Position numbers and translations under genes: made by a program
Part shown: positions 6,030 to 41,135 of the stretch, piece by piece
How positions within the stretch are numbered: the first letter of the stretch is position 1
Layout of the letters: every line of letters starts with the position of its first letter
Source of the DNA: Pseudomonadota bacterium
Lineage (GTDB): Bacteria; Desulfobacterota; Binatia; Binatales; Binataceae
DNA length: 64,000 nucleotides
Reading direction: 5' to 3'
NCBI GenBank assembly: GCA_021324885.1
Contig: JAJPIF010000002.1
Span: 186,001 to 250,000, forward strand
The notes under the pieces: model-generated
Databases searched by the model: none
What the model was told of the DNA's origin: nothing
The model's input: the letters and a program-made list of their open reading frames with translations, nothing else

Positions 6030-6926
6030 TTAACGTTCGGCTCGCTGGCGGACTTCGTCGAACTGCGAATAGTCAATCAGCCAGCCACCGTCGCCGGACT
6101 GGATAACATCGGCGAAATGAGCATCCCAGCGAATGTCTCCGGCGCTGTAGCTATGATGCGCGTAAACCGTTTGCGACAGGCCTTCATCGATTCCGGTCAA
6201 CGACACGATTATTGCAATCTGCCCGCGGCTGAGCGAATCCGGCGTGCAATCCTGCAGCGGGCTGTCCTCGTCAATTGCGTGGATCGCCAGCCAGGTCAAA
6301 GCCAAAAACGCATGACGGTCGCGCACCAGAGGCAGGTCATGAACGCGGATAAAATAACCGCCCTGCGCTTCAGGCTCGGCCCTCAGCAGCACAGCGTATA
6401 GCTGGGGCTGAACGATGCGATCGTCGCGCTCGTTGGCCATCCGAAACATCAGGCTCCGCCGTCCCCGATGCTCACCGACCACGGCAACGCTGCTGAACCT
6501 GATGCGCGCGGTCGGACGCGAAAACTTCGCGAACACCAACCCAGTCATGAGCGCCAGCCCCAGACCGCCGGTCAGCGCTTCGAGGGCGACCAGCGCATTG
6601 GCCGCATCGGATTGCGGCCACATCGTGCCATATCCAATGGTCGAAAGCGTCTGAATGGAAAAGAAAAAGGCGTTGCTGAAAGAACCCGGGCGCGCATTGA
6701 CGATGCCGCCGGTCGCCAGATAAGCAAGAGCAAACAATGCATTGGCGGCGACGAATGCGCCCGCGACCAATAGCAGGACAACCGACCATGGCGCATTAAC
6801 GAGGTAATGGTAGACGTCGGTCAACGGACTGTTCCGCACCCCGTACAACCTGACCGGAGTGTCGCCGGTACCCAGCAGTTTACCCATCAGGATCTGACTG
6901 CGGCCGATTTTGCGTGTGATTTTCAT
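6030..6926 (-). CDS. Inward-rectifier (KirBac-type) potassium channel
   Basis: Predicted inner-membrane potassium channel of 298 residues. The ATG at 6926 was chosen because GGGAGGTG lies just upstream and it keeps the usual short cytosolic N-terminus; the longer open frame upstream has unlikely composition. Membrane helix 1 is about residues 47-73. The pore helix FFFSIQTLSTIGYG carries the selectivity filter TIGYG at 96-100. Helix 2 is about 110-135. The remaining 160 residues match the cytosolic immunoglobulin-like domain of Kir channels, including LMFRMANER. It is a single gene, convergent with the atp operon. Confidence 0.93.
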   Translation of the reverse strand: MKITRKIGRSQILMGKLLGTGDTPVRLYGVRNSPLTDVYHYLVNAPWSVVLLLVAGAFVAANALFALAYLATGGIVNARPGSFSNAFFFSIQTLSTIGYGTMWPQSDAANALVALEALTGGLGLALMTGLVFAKFSRPTARIRFSSVAVVGEHRGRRSLMFRMANERDDRIVQPQLYAVLLRAEPEAQGGYFIRVHDLPLVRDRHAFLALTWLAIHAIDEDSPLQDCTPDSLSRGQIAIIVSLTGIDEGLSQTVYAHHSYSAGDIRWDAHFADVIQSGDGGWLIDYSQFDEVRQRAER

Positions 6927-7254
6927 AGCACCTCCCGTGCTCGACGCTCCGGCCAGCATAGAGAAAGATCTTTGGCAACCCAAACAACAATCGTTCGGGC
7001 CGGATGTATTATAAGAGCGCAGCGCTTCGTCCAAAGGAGTGCAAAACCGGTTGCTGGTTAACTGTTCAAACAATAACGCCAACAGCCCGGCCGCATTGTG
7101 GAACGAGTCCGTCGCACAACACTTTGCAGGTTCCCGCACCAGCGCTTGTGGATTGGTTAATTGATTGTTGCCAGCCGGTGACACCGGTTTTGCCGGCTCA
7201 AATGGTTTTTGCCGGCTTGGCCTTCCTGAAACGCCGAGCGGACCACCAAACAAA
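6927..7254. other. Intergenic region upstream of the Kir channel gene
   Basis: About 330 bases hold no convincing gene. The part next to 6926 carries the channel's ribosome-binding site and presumably its promoter. No clear -35/-10 pair was found. The far end adjoins the hairpin at 7255-7290. Confidence 0.5.
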
Positions 7255-7290
7255 TGGGCCCTTGCGGCCGACTATCGCCGCAAGGGCCCA
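7255..7290 (-). terminator. Rho-independent terminator of the DUF1329 gene
   Basis: Perfect 14-bp inverted repeat: left arm TGGGCCCTTGCGGC at 7255-7268, an 8-base loop, and the exact complement at 7277-7290. On the minus strand it follows the DUF1329 stop by 26 bases and is trailed by TTTGTTTGG. The short T-tract makes it look strong structurally but imperfect as an intrinsic terminator. Confidence 0.75.
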
Positions 7291-7316
7291 TAGGACGCCA
7301 ACTGCGCGGTCAGCGA

Positions 7317-8654
7317 TTATTGCATTATTTCGTCCATTCCGCCTGGCGTTCCCCATCGAACATAATTATCGAACCTGCCCGCATTCTGGTTGATCTCTCC
7401 GCCGCTCTGGATGTCGAGCGTCAAATGATCATTCTGAACGTCCCAGAAAGTGTAGATACCGTCTCCGGGACCGCCGGCGCCGGTGCAAACGTCGCCGTTG
7501 GTGCCAGGAATCGGCATCGGACGGTAAATCGAAGGACCAATCTTCCACAGATGCATCCCGGAGTCGTACAGGTCCATCCAGATCGGCTGCCAGGTCTGCT
7601 CGTCGATAAACGCCATCCGGCTGCCATAGCAATAGCCGGCTCTCAGCGCGGGTACGCGCCTGATGTCCAGCACCGCCACCGGCCGCACTTGCCAGATCAC
7701 GGCCTCAGGGCCCGGGAAATACAACGGCTTATAGTAGTTCGCCTTGTTGGTGTAGCCTTTCACTGGATAACCAACGAGGATTTTCTTGAAGCCGAGGAAG
7801 CGCGCCTGAAAGATCGGCGGCTGCAGATTCATCGAGCGCTCATCGTCCTGGGTGTAGTCGCTGCCGACCAGCGGCGAACAACGGGCCGCGGTGGTCAAAC
7901 GAATCGACCGCCGCAGCGAGGGAAGGAATACATAGGATTCTGGCAAATCGGCCGGATTGTTATGAAAGATCTGAAGTGAATTAATGTACTTCGACTGTTC
8001 AGGCTCCATGATGACGTTGTTCTGGGTAAGGAAGACGTTGCCGGTCCCGGGTATGTTGACTGGTTTACCGGGGTCGCTGAGATGCTTCACCTTGAAATTA
8101 ACCTCGCGCACCTCATTGACGTATTTGTTTCCGAACCTGTCCATCGTAAAGCCAAGCTTCGAATATGTCGTAATCAGGTACGGTATATACGCGTAATACT
8201 CGTTGTACATGATTTCATCGCCGGCCGCTGGTCCACTCGGATGAGGGAATGGCGCTCCGGCCACATAGCCGCTGATGTTGTAGCCGCCATTGGAGTTTTT
8301 TACCAACTTGACCTGGCTTGAGTATTTCTCGGTATCCTCCTGATAGATTCGGGGTAATGGCGTAGATGTGGTCTTTCCCACCGCCATTTCGGCATTGGCA
8401 GGCAGGCGCCAGAAGAACTTGCCGGCCCACAGTTCCTGCATGCCAACCGGCATAAAATCCTTGTATTTACGCCAATTGCGCGCCGTAATGACCGTTCCGG
8501 CGGGAATCGTCCGCGAAGAACTCGCGGGCACCAAAGCATCGTAGCTCTGCTCGCTCCAGGAAACCATCTGAGCTTGGGCGTCGATGCCCGTGCAAAGCAG
8601 CCACGCGCACGCCGCCATGGCCAATAAAAGCAATTTCGTCCATTTCATTTTCAT
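7317..8654 (-). CDS. DUF1329 domain protein, exported
   Basis: Protein of 445 residues beginning with a signal peptide (MKMKWTKLLLLAMAACAW, cleavage near AQAQM). The mature part follows the DUF1329 pattern: an early ELWAGKFFWRLP segment, a mid-protein block around residues 230-270 (YVFLPSLRRSIRL), and Trp/Tyr/Pro-rich beta segments such as YDSGMHLWK toward the end. DUF1329 proteins are periplasmic or outer-membrane-associated. They often occur near RND/MmpL-type exporters, but none is present here. Function is unknown; a lipid- or envelope-related role is inference. It is a single gene with its own terminator. Confidence 0.85.
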   Translation of the reverse strand: MKMKWTKLLLLAMAACAWLLCTGIDAQAQMVSWSEQSYDALVPASSSRTIPAGTVITARNWRKYKDFMPVGMQELWAGKFFWRLPANAEMAVGKTTSTPLPRIYQEDTEKYSSQVKLVKNSNGGYNISGYVAGAPFPHPSGPAAGDEIMYNEYYAYIPYLITTYSKLGFTMDRFGNKYVNEVREVNFKVKHLSDPGKPVNIPGTGNVFLTQNNVIMEPEQSKYINSLQIFHNNPADLPESYVFLPSLRRSIRLTTAARCSPLVGSDYTQDDERSMNLQPPIFQARFLGFKKILVGYPVKGYTNKANYYKPLYFPGPEAVIWQVRPVAVLDIRRVPALRAGYCYGSRMAFIDEQTWQPIWMDLYDSGMHLWKIGPSIYRPMPIPGTNGDVCTGAGGPGDGIYTFWDVQNDHLTLDIQSGGEINQNAGRFDNYVRWGTPGGMDEIMQ

Positions 8655-9676: not shown

Positions 9677-10291
9677 CTATAGCGACGGACTGGCCGGGTG
9701 TTTGGGGCCGCTGAATCCGCCAGCTGCCGCAATACCCCCGATCGTGCCGCCGAGGATAACAGCGCTCGCGCCGGCGCCAACGACCAGGCCGGATTGCACA
9801 GCGGATAATCCGGGGATCAGACTAGGCGTCACGGTCCCAGGACCCGCGATCTGGGCCAGAGTGGAGGTAACCCCACGTGATGCGAAAGCAAGGGCGGGAG
9901 CCTTTTTCGAGACGATCCAATTGACTGTCAATCCATCCTTACCAACCGCGGCCACGGCTTCCCCCGCCTTAAACCCGCTGGCGGCGGGTTCAAGTTTCAT
10001 CACGTAATTGCCTGGCTTAAGCCCGCTTAAGGCGTAAGAACCGTCGCTCTTTGAGATTGCCCGCAAGCCGGAGGACGCGGACGCAGCCCCAAAGGCGACC
10101 AGACGGAAATTCGGGTCGATCGCGGTCTTCTTTTGCGGCTCAATCAGAATGCTAACGCCGCTGACTGCCGCCCCGTCGGCAGCCCGAATTTGCCCTCGCA
10201 CCTCGGCGCAGGAACCGACAGACTCGAGAACAAAGAGGAGCAACACGACCGCGTTAACTAAGCCCCAGAAGAACAGCTTTTGGTTTTTCAC
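9677..10291 (-). CDS. Secreted protein with carboxypeptidase regulatory-like domain
   Basis: Protein of 204 residues. The start is GTG at 10291, eight bases after AAAGGAGAG. It has an N-terminal hydrophobic signal segment (LVNAVVLLLFVL) and a carboxypeptidase regulatory-like beta-sandwich (VRGQIRAADGAAVSGV, DGSYALSGLKPGNYVMKLE). A GLTVNWIV motif follows, then a Gly/Ala-rich hydrophobic stretch (about residues 160-190) and a short Pro/Lys tail. These domains usually occur in surface or secreted proteins. It closely resembles the protein at 38393-38902 on the other side of the polysaccharide locus. A role in the exported polymer or envelope is inferred from position only. Confidence 0.75.
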   Translation of the reverse strand: MKNQKLFFWGLVNAVVLLLFVLESVGSCAEVRGQIRAADGAAVSGVSILIEPQKKTAIDPNFRLVAFGAASASSGLRAISKSDGSYALSGLKPGNYVMKLEPAASGFKAGEAVAAVGKDGLTVNWIVSKKAPALAFASRGVTSTLAQIAGPGTVTPSLIPGLSAVQSGLVVGAGASAVILGGTIGGIAAAGGFSGPKHPASPSL

Positions 10292-10575
10292 GCCAACTCT
10301 CCTTTTAGCAAAAATGTGTCCTTCCACTTTTCCCCTCGCTGCCGAGAAAAGAGGAATATAAGCGACCTATGCGACCTTCGCGCCAATCAATCCAAACCAT
10401 ATGCTGTCAAACCGCGGAGACGGTGTCGGTATACTATTCACGCGATCGGAAATTTTCCCGGTTTGGAAATAACTTAGCAAGTATTCGCCTTTGATCGTTA
10501 TGAACGGTCGCGCTTGCGGCTTTTGATGCGTTTGCGGCGCCGGACAGACTTTTCAAAACAAGCTTTACAACGCTG

Positions 10576-11880
10576 TCATTCCTGAGTGCGCGGACACCGC
10601 CGCCGGGGTGGGGCGGTACCGCGCGGCCTGACCCATTGCGCGGGGGCCTGCAACGGACGGCGCCGGCGATGCTTCCAGCGGCGTGAGGGCCTGACAGCTC
10701 TTGCTCCATACTTCGCGATCAAACGAAGCGGCCGGTAAAGATAATAAAGAAGATAGAGCGGCGCAGGAAGCTGCAGCGCGCCGTCGGCGTCGCTCGGCAG
10801 CAGCGCAAACGCGGCGGCGCAGCGGATTTTCGGCCACATTCCCGGGGCCAGGCGCAATTGCAGGCCGAACTCCGACGACCTTTCCTGTTCCTCCGGCGTT
10901 ATCGCCAACATCCGCTCAAGCAGGCCGTGTGCGAAGCGCTTTTCACCGATCGATCCGTCGGCGTAAGCCCGCGCCGGTTGTGGTAGTTGCACTTCCAGCA
11001 AACGATTCACGATCCACAGGCCTAACGCCAGCACCCGACTGCCGTCCGCTTTGCGGGCGGCAGCGATGACACGTTCCCAATCCAATGCGCGCAATGGCGC
11101 ACCGGGACGCCCGCTCCGTCCATCATGGAGATGGATCAGCCGCCCGAGGTCGGCGGCCAACCGCAGACTTTGCCACGAATGCCTGGCGGCGTGCCCGCAC
11201 AGAAACATGAGCTGGTCCTCGGGCGATAATGTGATCACCTTGCGGCCTTGAAACATCGCCGGTTCGACCCGTTCCCACACCGATTCGAGATAACGCGCAG
11301 CAGGAAACAGGCTGGGCAGCAACTGCCAATGCAGATCGACGGCCGGATTGATGCCGTCGTGCACCAGCACCAGTTGCGAGCGCCAGTGAAACGCCGCCTT
11401 TTCCTCGCCGGGGGGAAGCTGCGTGTCCAGCCGGTAGCCAGCTGCGATCAGCACGTCCTTGGCCCGCGTGATATCGCCGCGGCGCACCAGCAGGTCGAGG
11501 TCGCAGCTATCGCGCCATGGAATATCGTCGCACAGCATCGCGGCCAGCACCGGACCCTTGAGCGCGACCGCCTGAATTCCCTCCCCCTCCAGGATACCCA
11601 ACACCTTGATCAGGTTTGCGCTGAGCATCAGGTGCCTGGCCGTGTAAAAGCGCAGCACCTGGTCGAGATGCGCTGAAAAATCGCCATCGACCACGTCCGG
11701 ACAGAGGCTCTTGAGCTGCCATCCCATCAGCGGTTCCATGCAATGCGTCCGCGCCAGATCCATCACAGCGGGCCAATCCTGGATGCGACGCGCGCGCTCG
11801 ATTACATCAGCATCACCGCAGGTGCCGGCGAAATGCCGCGTGCATGTCAGCAGGAGGTCAGTTTCAGGGGTTAGGCTCAT
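10576..11880 (-). CDS. Nucleotidyltransferase-fold protein (NTP_transf_5-like)
   Basis: Protein of 434 residues matching the uncharacterised nucleotidyltransferase family common in polysaccharide loci. Key features are VALKGP (residues 106-110), then WRDSCDLDLLV with Asp127 and Asp129 as likely metal ligands, and a DLHWQL motif further on. The C-terminal 40 residues are unusually Arg/Pro-rich. ATG at 11880 was preferred to one at 11910 because the longer version translates a hairpin repeat (11885-11906), whose GGGAGAGG arm sits at ribosome-site distance. It is the last gene of the minus-strand polysaccharide locus. Substrate is unknown. Confidence 0.75.
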   Translation of the reverse strand: MSLTPETDLLLTCTRHFAGTCGDADVIERARRIQDWPAVMDLARTHCMEPLMGWQLKSLCPDVVDGDFSAHLDQVLRFYTARHLMLSANLIKVLGILEGEGIQAVALKGPVLAAMLCDDIPWRDSCDLDLLVRRGDITRAKDVLIAAGYRLDTQLPPGEEKAAFHWRSQLVLVHDGINPAVDLHWQLLPSLFPAARYLESVWERVEPAMFQGRKVITLSPEDQLMFLCGHAARHSWQSLRLAADLGRLIHLHDGRSGRPGAPLRALDWERVIAAARKADGSRVLALGLWIVNRLLEVQLPQPARAYADGSIGEKRFAHGLLERMLAITPEEQERSSEFGLQLRLAPGMWPKIRCAAAFALLPSDADGALQLPAPLYLLYYLYRPLRLIAKYGARAVRPSRRWKHRRRRPLQAPAQWVRPRGTAPPRRRCPRTQE

Positions 11881-39080: not shown

Positions 39081-41135
39081 CTAAGGATTTGCCGCCAACC
39101 ATCCCCGAGCCGCGCAAGCCTGCGCTGCTCCATCATAGCCGCCGTAGTAGTGAATCATCTGGACGAACTGCGAGCGCGCCTGTTCCTGTGTAATACCAAG
39201 CTCACGCGCCAGCTCTCGATATGATTCGCGGCTGAGTTCGTTCAGTCCCTGCGAAGTCATGTGCGAAATCTGTTCAAGCATCGCGCTTGCGCAGAAATAC
39301 TTGAGGGCTTCGGCAGGTTTGTCCTCTTTGGCGGACTGGCGCGGCGCGGACCTTTGAAAGTCCTGCCCCCGCGGTGTTGGAACTGCGGCAGTCTCCGTCA
39401 ACGAGGCTGGACTTAGCAGCTTTTGCTGGGCATTGGTTGCCGGCCAACGCTCGGCGCGGCAGGTCCCCCGCCACATGTCAGCCTGTTCTTCGGGCGTCCA
39501 GTCGGGATTTTGCCGTATATCATTAATAACGATCCGGAAGGCATCCCGAAGCAGATTCTGTTCTTTGTCGGAGGTGCCGTCCAGAAGGGCCAGCAATTTA
39601 TGGCTCAGGTTTTTGATGTTTCTTGGGTCGCCATCCTGGCCCATCGCGAGGGTGAGCAACCGGGCTCCTTTGCCTACCCGGTCGCAGAGGGTTTTCTCGC
39701 GCAGGGATAAGGGCTTTTCGTTCCGGCTGACCGTCTCGTCGGCCGCCATTTTGGGAATACCTGGTGGCCGGGCATCCGCCCGGTACGCTGTTTCCTCTGA
39801 CACGACCGAAGCTTTTCCCGCTACACGCGCCTGCCCGTTGCGGTATTGGATGACTACGATAACGCCGAAAGCGATGCTCAGCAGCGAGGTGAACATCAAC
39901 CCCACGAGAAGCAAGCGCCGGGCACGCTCAGTCCCGGTTGGGCGTTGATAAGCCATCAGGCAATACGGACAAGCCTCGGCGTCTTGCGGAATTTCCCTGG
40001 AACAGAACCGGCACGTTGTCTGGTGAGTCAATACGACGGTTGCTTCATCGCCACTCATCGAAAGCGTCGCCGGTCCTGAACCGCTTACCACAGTGGCGGG
40101 GGAGCAATTCTGTCTTATCGTCGCGCCAACCCTGAAAGTTGATTGGTTAGCGTCCGCCACCCTGATCGCCTGGAGCCTTCGGGTGAACTCCTGGGCGCTC
40201 GGCACACGCTGATCAGGGTCAATCATCAGCGCCTGACTGATGATTTCCTCCAGTGCGCGATTGCATCCCGGCCGCAATTGTCCCAAAAGCGGAAAGCTGA
40301 AAGGGGCGTGAGCGGCAGGATCCCATCCGCTCAGCAGATTGAGCATCGTCGCACCCAGCGCGTACAGATCCGTGCGCGGCTCGGTCTTGCCTTCGTACTG
40401 CTCGGGTGGCGCGTAACCGTGCGTCCCGACCATGGTCGCGGTTTTCTGGGATTCGAATAGACGCGCGATGCCGAAATCGATCAACTTGACCGAGCCGTCG
40501 TTCGAGACGATCAGGTTGGACGGCTTCAGATCGCGGAAAATCACTGCTGGCGTGAGGCCGTGAAGATATTCGAGCGCCTCCAACACCTGCAGTGCGACGT
40601 GGATGACAAAGTTCTGGTCCAGGAATCCTTTGGGTGAGGCTTTGAGGCGGTTCTCAAGAGTCTCGCCTTCGACGTACTCCATCACCAGGAAATGGTGGTT
40701 ATGTTCGCTGAAATGATCATAGACGTGGGGAATACGCGGGTGTTTGAGCAAGGCCAGGATGCTGGCCTCACGGGCAAAAGCCTGGGCAAAGGCATCCTGT
40801 TCATGAGGATTCCAGGAATCCTCGCTCATTTCAGCCAAAGCGCAGGGTCGGTTGGAAAGGCGTAGATCCTGGGCCAGGTAAACCCGCTTCATCCCGCCGC
40901 CGCCCAGCGGCTTAATGATCCGATACCTTTGACCGATTATGCGAACGGGCCCGCCGAGTTGAGAATCGCGGCGGTTTTTAGGGACGGCGGGCGCTATTTG
41001 CGGCTGCGGTCTGAGCGAAGCTTGCTCGTTTTTCTGAGCGGCGGCGAACAGGCCGGGCCGCAGCGGCGTACCACAGTGTTCGCAGCGAAACTGGTTGGAC
41101 CGAGAAACGCGGCCACATACCGCACAGTTCCTCAT
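39081..41135 (-). CDS. Membrane Ser/Thr protein kinase with WNK-like lysine placement
   Basis: Protein of 684 residues. Residues 3-21 form a zinc ribbon (CAVC...CEHC). The kinase domain spans about 70-325: Gly-rich loop LGGGGMKRVYLAQD, catalytic FRDLKPSN (Asp202, Asn207), IDFGIAR (Asp220) and APPEQY. The usual beta-3 lysine is replaced by Ala101 (CALAEM), while Lys83 lies in the Gly loop. Eukaryotic WNK kinases use the same arrangement. A second zinc ribbon (CRFC...CPYC, 375-392), a membrane helix (about 408-430) and a periplasmic C-terminal region of unknown fold follow. HRD has Phe for His. Substrates are unknown. Confidence 0.85.
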   Translation of the reverse strand: MRNCAVCGRVSRSNQFRCEHCGTPLRPGLFAAAQKNEQASLRPQPQIAPAVPKNRRDSQLGGPVRIIGQRYRIIKPLGGGGMKRVYLAQDLRLSNRPCALAEMSEDSWNPHEQDAFAQAFAREASILALLKHPRIPHVYDHFSEHNHHFLVMEYVEGETLENRLKASPKGFLDQNFVIHVALQVLEALEYLHGLTPAVIFRDLKPSNLIVSNDGSVKLIDFGIARLFESQKTATMVGTHGYAPPEQYEGKTEPRTDLYALGATMLNLLSGWDPAAHAPFSFPLLGQLRPGCNRALEEIISQALMIDPDQRVPSAQEFTRRLQAIRVADANQSTFRVGATIRQNCSPATVVSGSGPATLSMSGDEATVVLTHQTTCRFCSREIPQDAEACPYCLMAYQRPTGTERARRLLLVGLMFTSLLSIAFGVIVVIQYRNGQARVAGKASVVSEETAYRADARPPGIPKMAADETVSRNEKPLSLREKTLCDRVGKGARLLTLAMGQDGDPRNIKNLSHKLLALLDGTSDKEQNLLRDAFRIVINDIRQNPDWTPEEQADMWRGTCRAERWPATNAQQKLLSPASLTETAAVPTPRGQDFQRSAPRQSAKEDKPAEALKYFCASAMLEQISHMTSQGLNELSRESYRELARELGITQEQARSQFVQMIHYYGGYDGAAQACAARGWLAANP

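Follow-up and report, generated by a model that had tools for sequence, protein, structure and literature searches.

Within the window, the 64,000-nucleotide stretch of Binataceae DNA analysed here, the minus strand carries a kinase gene of 684 codons for as many amino acids (39081..41135; open reading frame list and Pfam PF00069), and all features of this gene described below lie on that strand. The Pkinase match (PF00069; 139.9 bits against a cut-off of 31.7) covers residues 71-275, and the kinase domain delimited by Pfam and PDB matches and by the AlphaFold2 model extends over residues 65-327 (40155..40943). By fold and sequence profile, the protein is a member of the Hanks-type (PknB-like) superfamily. 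An N-terminal zinc ribbon of the form CxxC...CxxC (41073..41126) precedes the kinase domain, and a second ribbon, CRFC...CPYC (39960..40013), follows it, both read from the sequence; next come one probable transmembrane helix (39843..39920), a hydrophobic stretch read by eye from the sequence, and a C-terminal part that is probably exposed outside the cytoplasm. The ribbon homologous to the second one gave a weak DZR match in a paralogue on contig C9, and no PASTA repeats were found in the window kinase.

The first-pass annotation placed polysaccharide-export and small heat-shock protein (sHsp) genes next to the kinase gene, as the Pfam matches confirm, and two sHsp genes are present. The nearer one (HSP20, PF00011; 41220..41630, minus strand) lies 84 bp upstream of the kinase gene and is overlapped by 4 bp by the second (PF00011; 41627..42640, minus strand), whose 337-aa HSP20 product has a long N-terminal part. 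Because the kinase gene follows the overlapping sHsp pair after 84 bp on the same strand, the arrangement suggests co-transcription of all three. The second HSP20 protein carries the sequence RR(R/K)GGTTRLDLxEVLG twice, in near-identical copies, together with a third, looser version (LTRVDM), and the RR(R/K)GGTTRLDL repeats could be phosphorylation sites.

The glycine loop of the kinase (GGGGMKRVY, residues 78-86; 40878..40904), which aligns with GRGSFKTVY of WNK1, carries Lys83 (40887..40889; PKA position 55), and the beta-3 motif CALAEM places Ala101 (40833..40835; PKA K72) where canonical kinases read xAxKE. In a MAFFT alignment with WNK1, whose letters were identical to those of PDB 5w7t, Lys83 falls on K233, Ala101 on C250 and the alpha-C glutamate Glu123 (40767..40769; PKA E91) on E268, column for column. 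Asp202 and Asn207 of the catalytic loop (FRDLKPSN; Asp202 to Asn207, 40515..40532) and, from conservation and alignment, the DFG Asp220 (40476..40478) are intact together with Glu123, and the residue after Asp220, Phe221, occupies the position of Leu369 in the WNK1 chloride pocket. Since the beta-3 lysine of the canonical VAIK motif is replaced by Ala101, the window kinase is a variant rather than a canonical PknB; it shares the loop position of the putative catalytic lysine with WNK kinases, and has alanine instead of their beta-3 cysteine. The first-pass annotation had read the locus in the same way, with Lys83 in a WNK-like GxGxxKxVY loop, Ala101 at beta-3 and Asp202, Asn207 and Asp220 at their catalytic positions, and the open reading frame and the alignment agree with it on each count. 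It had also allowed that a proper alignment might bring a different lysine to beta-3, and no such lysine was found: the segment PCALAEMSED has none, and the canonical paralogues align there gap-free, so that a beta-3 lysine masked by mis-alignment is ruled out.

The kinase domain was modelled with AlphaFold2 from 29 own and related sequences (pLDDT 88.9, pTM 0.88). Among solved structures compared by VIA-align, Mycobacterium tuberculosis PknB ranked first (Z 29.4), and WNK3 with AMP-PNP and WNK1 reached 26.3 and 25.6; the closest solved relatives by sequence were bacterial PknB/StkP (E 6e-30). This modelling, one of the checks proposed in the first-pass annotation, predicts a normal PknB-like kinase fold, which is no proof of function.

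Seven kinase-domain matches were found in the window's own genome. The paralogue on contig C9 (52% identical to the window kinase) has the same exchange of lysine positions, hereafter the swap (GGGGMKMVY/CALAEM), and two paralogues on contig C2 are canonical (GGGGMGVVY/CAIKEM and VGGMGRVY/VAVKEM). The search of bacterial genomes for this loop, also proposed at the outset, was run with the pattern GxGGMKxVYLA over about 85,000 species and returned 38 loci, 34 of which are kinases with a CALAEM-type beta-3 strand from MAGs labelled, for example, Candidatus Binataceae, Deltaproteobacteria or Proteobacteria. Two others are Chloroflexi kinases with DVAIALIK; L031 and L042, lacking a beta-3 motif of this kind and unlike these kinases, were not counted, nor were the Chloroflexota loop-pattern loci L182 and L184, which are likewise unlike them. 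A close homologue was present in 40 of the 41 genomes of Binataceae (candidate phylum Binatota) and in 16 of 17 genera, the missing genome being 53% complete; among the homologues whose sequence was read, all of the close set carry the swap. Across a sample of the phylum, eight genomes, all of them Binataceae, contained the loop pattern, and none of the 387 sampled genomes outside the family did. Among 15 other families of the class, each with one representative, only one had a close homologue, and this was canonical (L139); a DNA pattern for beta-3 applied class-wide was too degenerate to be informative. The swap is patchy in Chloroflexota: of 251 genomes sampled, 4 had the loop pattern, yet ten loci with a swap-type loop lie in a single genome of 2.8 Mb (G429). 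In one Chloroflexota protein (L048, 1230-5486), the swap kinase is joined to an AAA ATPase and a domain resembling adenylate cyclase. The expectation that such variants may exist elsewhere in bacteria thus holds, for a Binataceae-wide family and for a separate clade in a few Chloroflexota. Recurring throughout the family and in a paralogue, the swap is not a product of chance or sequencing error.

The two lysine positions are strictly coupled. The 85 usable domains comprised 51 with Lys55 and Ala72, one with Lys and Val, and 33 with Gly, Ala or Ser at 55 and Lys72 (PKA numbering), and no other combination was seen. The beta-3 lysine is kept in 0 of 52 domains with the loop lysine and present in 33 of 33 without it (Fisher p 2e-24); in the Chloroflexota set, with 16 domains having Lys55 and Ala or Ser72 and seven canonical ones, the corresponding counts are 0/16 and 7/7 (p 4e-6), both p values overstating the coupling because the sequences are related. 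Part of the Binataceae set was picked by the loop pattern, so that the loop lysine, not the beta-3 residue, is there by selection; the remaining sets (family, class and Chloroflexota homologues) were picked by protein similarity. Every kinase inspected thus has exactly one of the two, either the loop lysine or the beta-3 lysine. Across 48 distinct Binataceae swap domains, G52, K55, A72, E91, the HRD Arg and Asp, K168, N171, D184 and the DFG Phe are 100% conserved, which includes the positions of Lys83, Ala101, Glu123, R201, D202, K204 and N207 of the window kinase. As all 48 keep both the lysine and the alanine, the swap is not accidental. One member of the swap clade (L114, 1522-2283 in G399:C44) keeps the loop lysine and has lost HRD and DFG; it is probably a pseudokinase that descends from swap kinases. 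Judged by these motifs, decay does occur in the clade but looks different from the swap itself.

Quick IQ-TREE trees grouped the swap domains of Binataceae in a single clade (SH-aLRT 95-98), next to canonical Binataceae paralogues encoded by these same genomes; those of Chloroflexota make up a separate clade (99), nested in another group of canonical kinases. After deletion of both trait columns and addition of further Chloroflexota kinases, canonical as well as swapped, a tree forced to a single bacterial origin was 86 log units worse (p-AU 3.75e-11); an earlier AU test with few Chloroflexota sequences had not rejected it (p 0.113). These trees indicate that the swap arose at least twice within bacteria, each time at the cost of the original lysine, and that in Binataceae it had one origin within the family, from a canonical ancestor. 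Stated phylogenetically, the coupling amounts to two independent gains, each with loss of the other lysine.

The genomic context differs between the core family member (C9 type) and the window copy. A gene for an FHA-domain membrane protein lies directly upstream of the core swap kinase, on the same strand, at 24 of 27 loci. Phosphothreonine is the ligand of FHA domains, and a kinase paired with an FHA protein is a typical feature of active phospho-signalling; the upstream FHA gene therefore supports activity of the core kinase. An accessory swap kinase (GGGGQKTVY; L177 in genome G304) also lies near two separate FHA-domain genes (7191-8198 and 10169-10996). The window copy is a long-branch, lineage-specific paralogue whose closest relatives, Binataceae kinases, are 57-60% identical, and for this reason activity is less certain for it than for the core member.

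Taken together, these kinases are, with good probability, active PknB-type enzymes whose catalytic lysine has migrated, convergent with WNK and not WNK by descent. The window protein would be a membrane-anchored Ser/Thr kinase in which this lysine has left beta-3 (PKA 72) and now sits in the glycine loop/beta-2 (PKA 55), the arrangement seen in WNK. Lys83 is expected to reach the ATP site, contact the alpha and beta phosphates and pair with the alpha-C Glu123, while Ala101 would leave the old lysine site empty and Asp202, Asn207 and Asp220 would serve catalysis and metal binding as usual. Phosphotransfer by the swap kinases is likely, as we infer from sequence features: the coupling of the two positions, the family-wide conservation, the two bacterial origins and the FHA linkage all favour the first-pass annotation's proposal of a WNK-like relocated lysine with plausible activity. 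The core member may act in FHA-based phosphothreonine signalling, and the lineage-specific copy in the window possibly has an sHsp-related role.

Pseudokinases are usually recognised by a missing beta-3 lysine, and the swap could accordingly be taken to mark lost phosphotransfer, the proteins serving as ATP-binding switches or scaffolds. Many families of bacterial pseudokinases are defined by this loss (PMC12599244), and the decayed swap-clade member described above did follow this course. However, all other catalytic residues are invariant in the 48 distinct domains across the family, a lysine was gained exactly at the WNK position twice independently, and the core kinase has an FHA partner gene, so we consider this reading doubtful. 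Nor does the window kinase have the HRD or DFG loss or the Lys-to-Arg change of bacterial pseudokinases; its HRD-type Asp and DFG are intact, and it combines the beta-3 alanine with a new loop lysine.

The first-pass annotation further pointed to chloride or osmotic sensing; in a WNK-like sensor of this kind, chloride bound in the vacated beta-3 site would gate the kinase. In WNK1, chloride is held by the backbone of Gly370/Leu371 in a site lined by Phe283, Leu299, Leu369 and Leu371, and L369F alone renders the kinase chloride-insensitive (PMC7606576). Although the beta-3 site is vacated here as well, Leu369, Leu371, Phe283 and Leu299 correspond to Phe, Ile, Val and Leu in the window kinase, which thus lacks the WNK1 pocket. 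At positions 283, 299, 369 and 371, the bacterial swap kinases have Val/Ile/Ala, Leu/Ile, Phe and Ile (Chloroflexota: Phe or Leu), respectively; Leu369 is Phe in every bacterial swap member, and the canonical paralogues share this DFG Phe. Because the pocket residues differ, with Leu369 replaced by Phe as in the chloride-insensitive L369F, the chloride reading is unsupported. The Kir channel that the annotation noted farther off is indeed matched in the window (PF01007, 6513-6683 on the minus strand), more than 30 kb from the kinase gene and in an unrelated neighbourhood, but the match is weak (30.6 bits, cut-off 22.7); this channel candidate (6030-7253) is the sole one of the Kir family in the genome. 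At 11 of the 27 Binataceae loci, the core swap kinase gene and a gene for a ClC chloride channel with CBS and TrkA_C domains are arranged tail-to-tail (examples among L014-L051: L017 3114-5189, L022 387-2426 and L046 380-2578), which might be held in favour of a chloride sensor. These genes are, however, convergent and outside the kinase operon, none adjoins a swap kinase in the window's own genome, and ClC genes are common in bacteria; the adjacency is probably plain synteny, though curious beside a WNK-like kinase. Chloride sensing by the swap kinases is unlikely on these residues, and gating by chloride in the vacated site has very little in its favour.

Horizontal acquisition of a eukaryotic WNK would account for the shared lysine position and the structural match to WNK3 and WNK1 (Z 25.6-26.3), but it is practically dismissed by the better bacterial PknB/StkP matches in sequence and structure (E 6e-30, Z 29.4), the 57-60% identity to Binataceae kinases only, the nearest canonical relatives in the same genomes and the beta-3 Ala in place of Cys. 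In the trees, built from bacterial kinases, and in the sequence searches, the closest relatives are bacterial and the genomes' own canonical paralogues are sisters, with no sign of descent from the WNK lineage. WNKs have a separate origin in the established kinase phylogeny, and with PknB/StkP as the best solved matches of the window kinase, this separate origin appears to hold here. More speculatively, migration may have evolved at least three times (WNK, Binataceae and Chloroflexota) and yielded active bacterial kinases, with the vacated pocket binding a non-chloride regulatory ligand and ligand gating, not catalysis, being what was selected.

If the migrated lysine is catalytic, these families would represent a second and a third independent relocation, in bacteria and alongside canonical paralogues that share their genomes, pointing to a repeatable evolutionary path. 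They would also provide bacterial proteins for testing the cause of relocation (ligand pocket, regulation or inhibitor selectivity), and surveys of bacteria that equate a missing beta-3 lysine with a pseudokinase may misclassify genuine kinases. No account of PknB-type kinases that have their catalytic lysine in the WNK position was found in the open literature searched; the 2025 atlas of 42 families (O'Boyle et al., PMC12233097) lay outside this search, so a prior description of bacterial WNK-like kinases is possible. Wnk was regarded as the only functional ePK family without K72 (Kannan et al. 2007, PMC1821047), and none of the seven families in a 2025 review of bacterial pseudokinases (ActPs1-3, GLW, CP1, DYD and DLHK) has a migrated lysine (PMC12599244).

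Compared with known systems, the swap kinases resemble WNK kinases in having a lysine in beta-2/the glycine loop (GxGxxKxVY), no beta-3 lysine, and the alpha-C Glu, HRD and DFG Asp retained. WNKs differ in their eukaryotic lineage, to which no descent link was found, in their beta-3 Cys and in a DLG motif with the chloride-pocket Leu369; their substrates OSR1/SPAK are eukaryotic proteins. The Chloroflexota kinases (L048, L094 and L135), for which no description of this feature was found, have the same swap (loop GEGGKKRVY or GAQKSVY, beta-3 AIALI/ALSML) but form a separate clade with other fusions, some to AAA ATPase and adenylate cyclase. CAK-chloro small-molecule kinases show a similar charge shift from 72 to 55 (R55/M72; Kannan et al. 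2007, PMC1821047), but with Arg instead of Lys and the alpha-C Glu lost, and they are not Hanks-type protein kinases. ActPs2, DYD and DLHK also have a replaced beta-3 lysine, with ATP binding proposed via other residues (PMC12599244); in them, however, the lysine is changed to Arg or another residue, and HRD and/or DFG is changed or the alpha-C Glu lost. PknB/StkP is closest to the window kinase in solved fold and sequence, and both are membrane-anchored; PknB has the canonical beta-3 lysine, whereas the window kinase has zinc ribbons flanking the kinase domain and no PASTA repeats, and the swap kinase is FHA-linked. The canonical Binataceae paralogues (L003/L010 and L004) are 46-49% identical, occur in the same genome and share the motifs of the window kinase, but have a GGMG loop and the ordinary lysine in AIKEM/AVKEM at beta-3.
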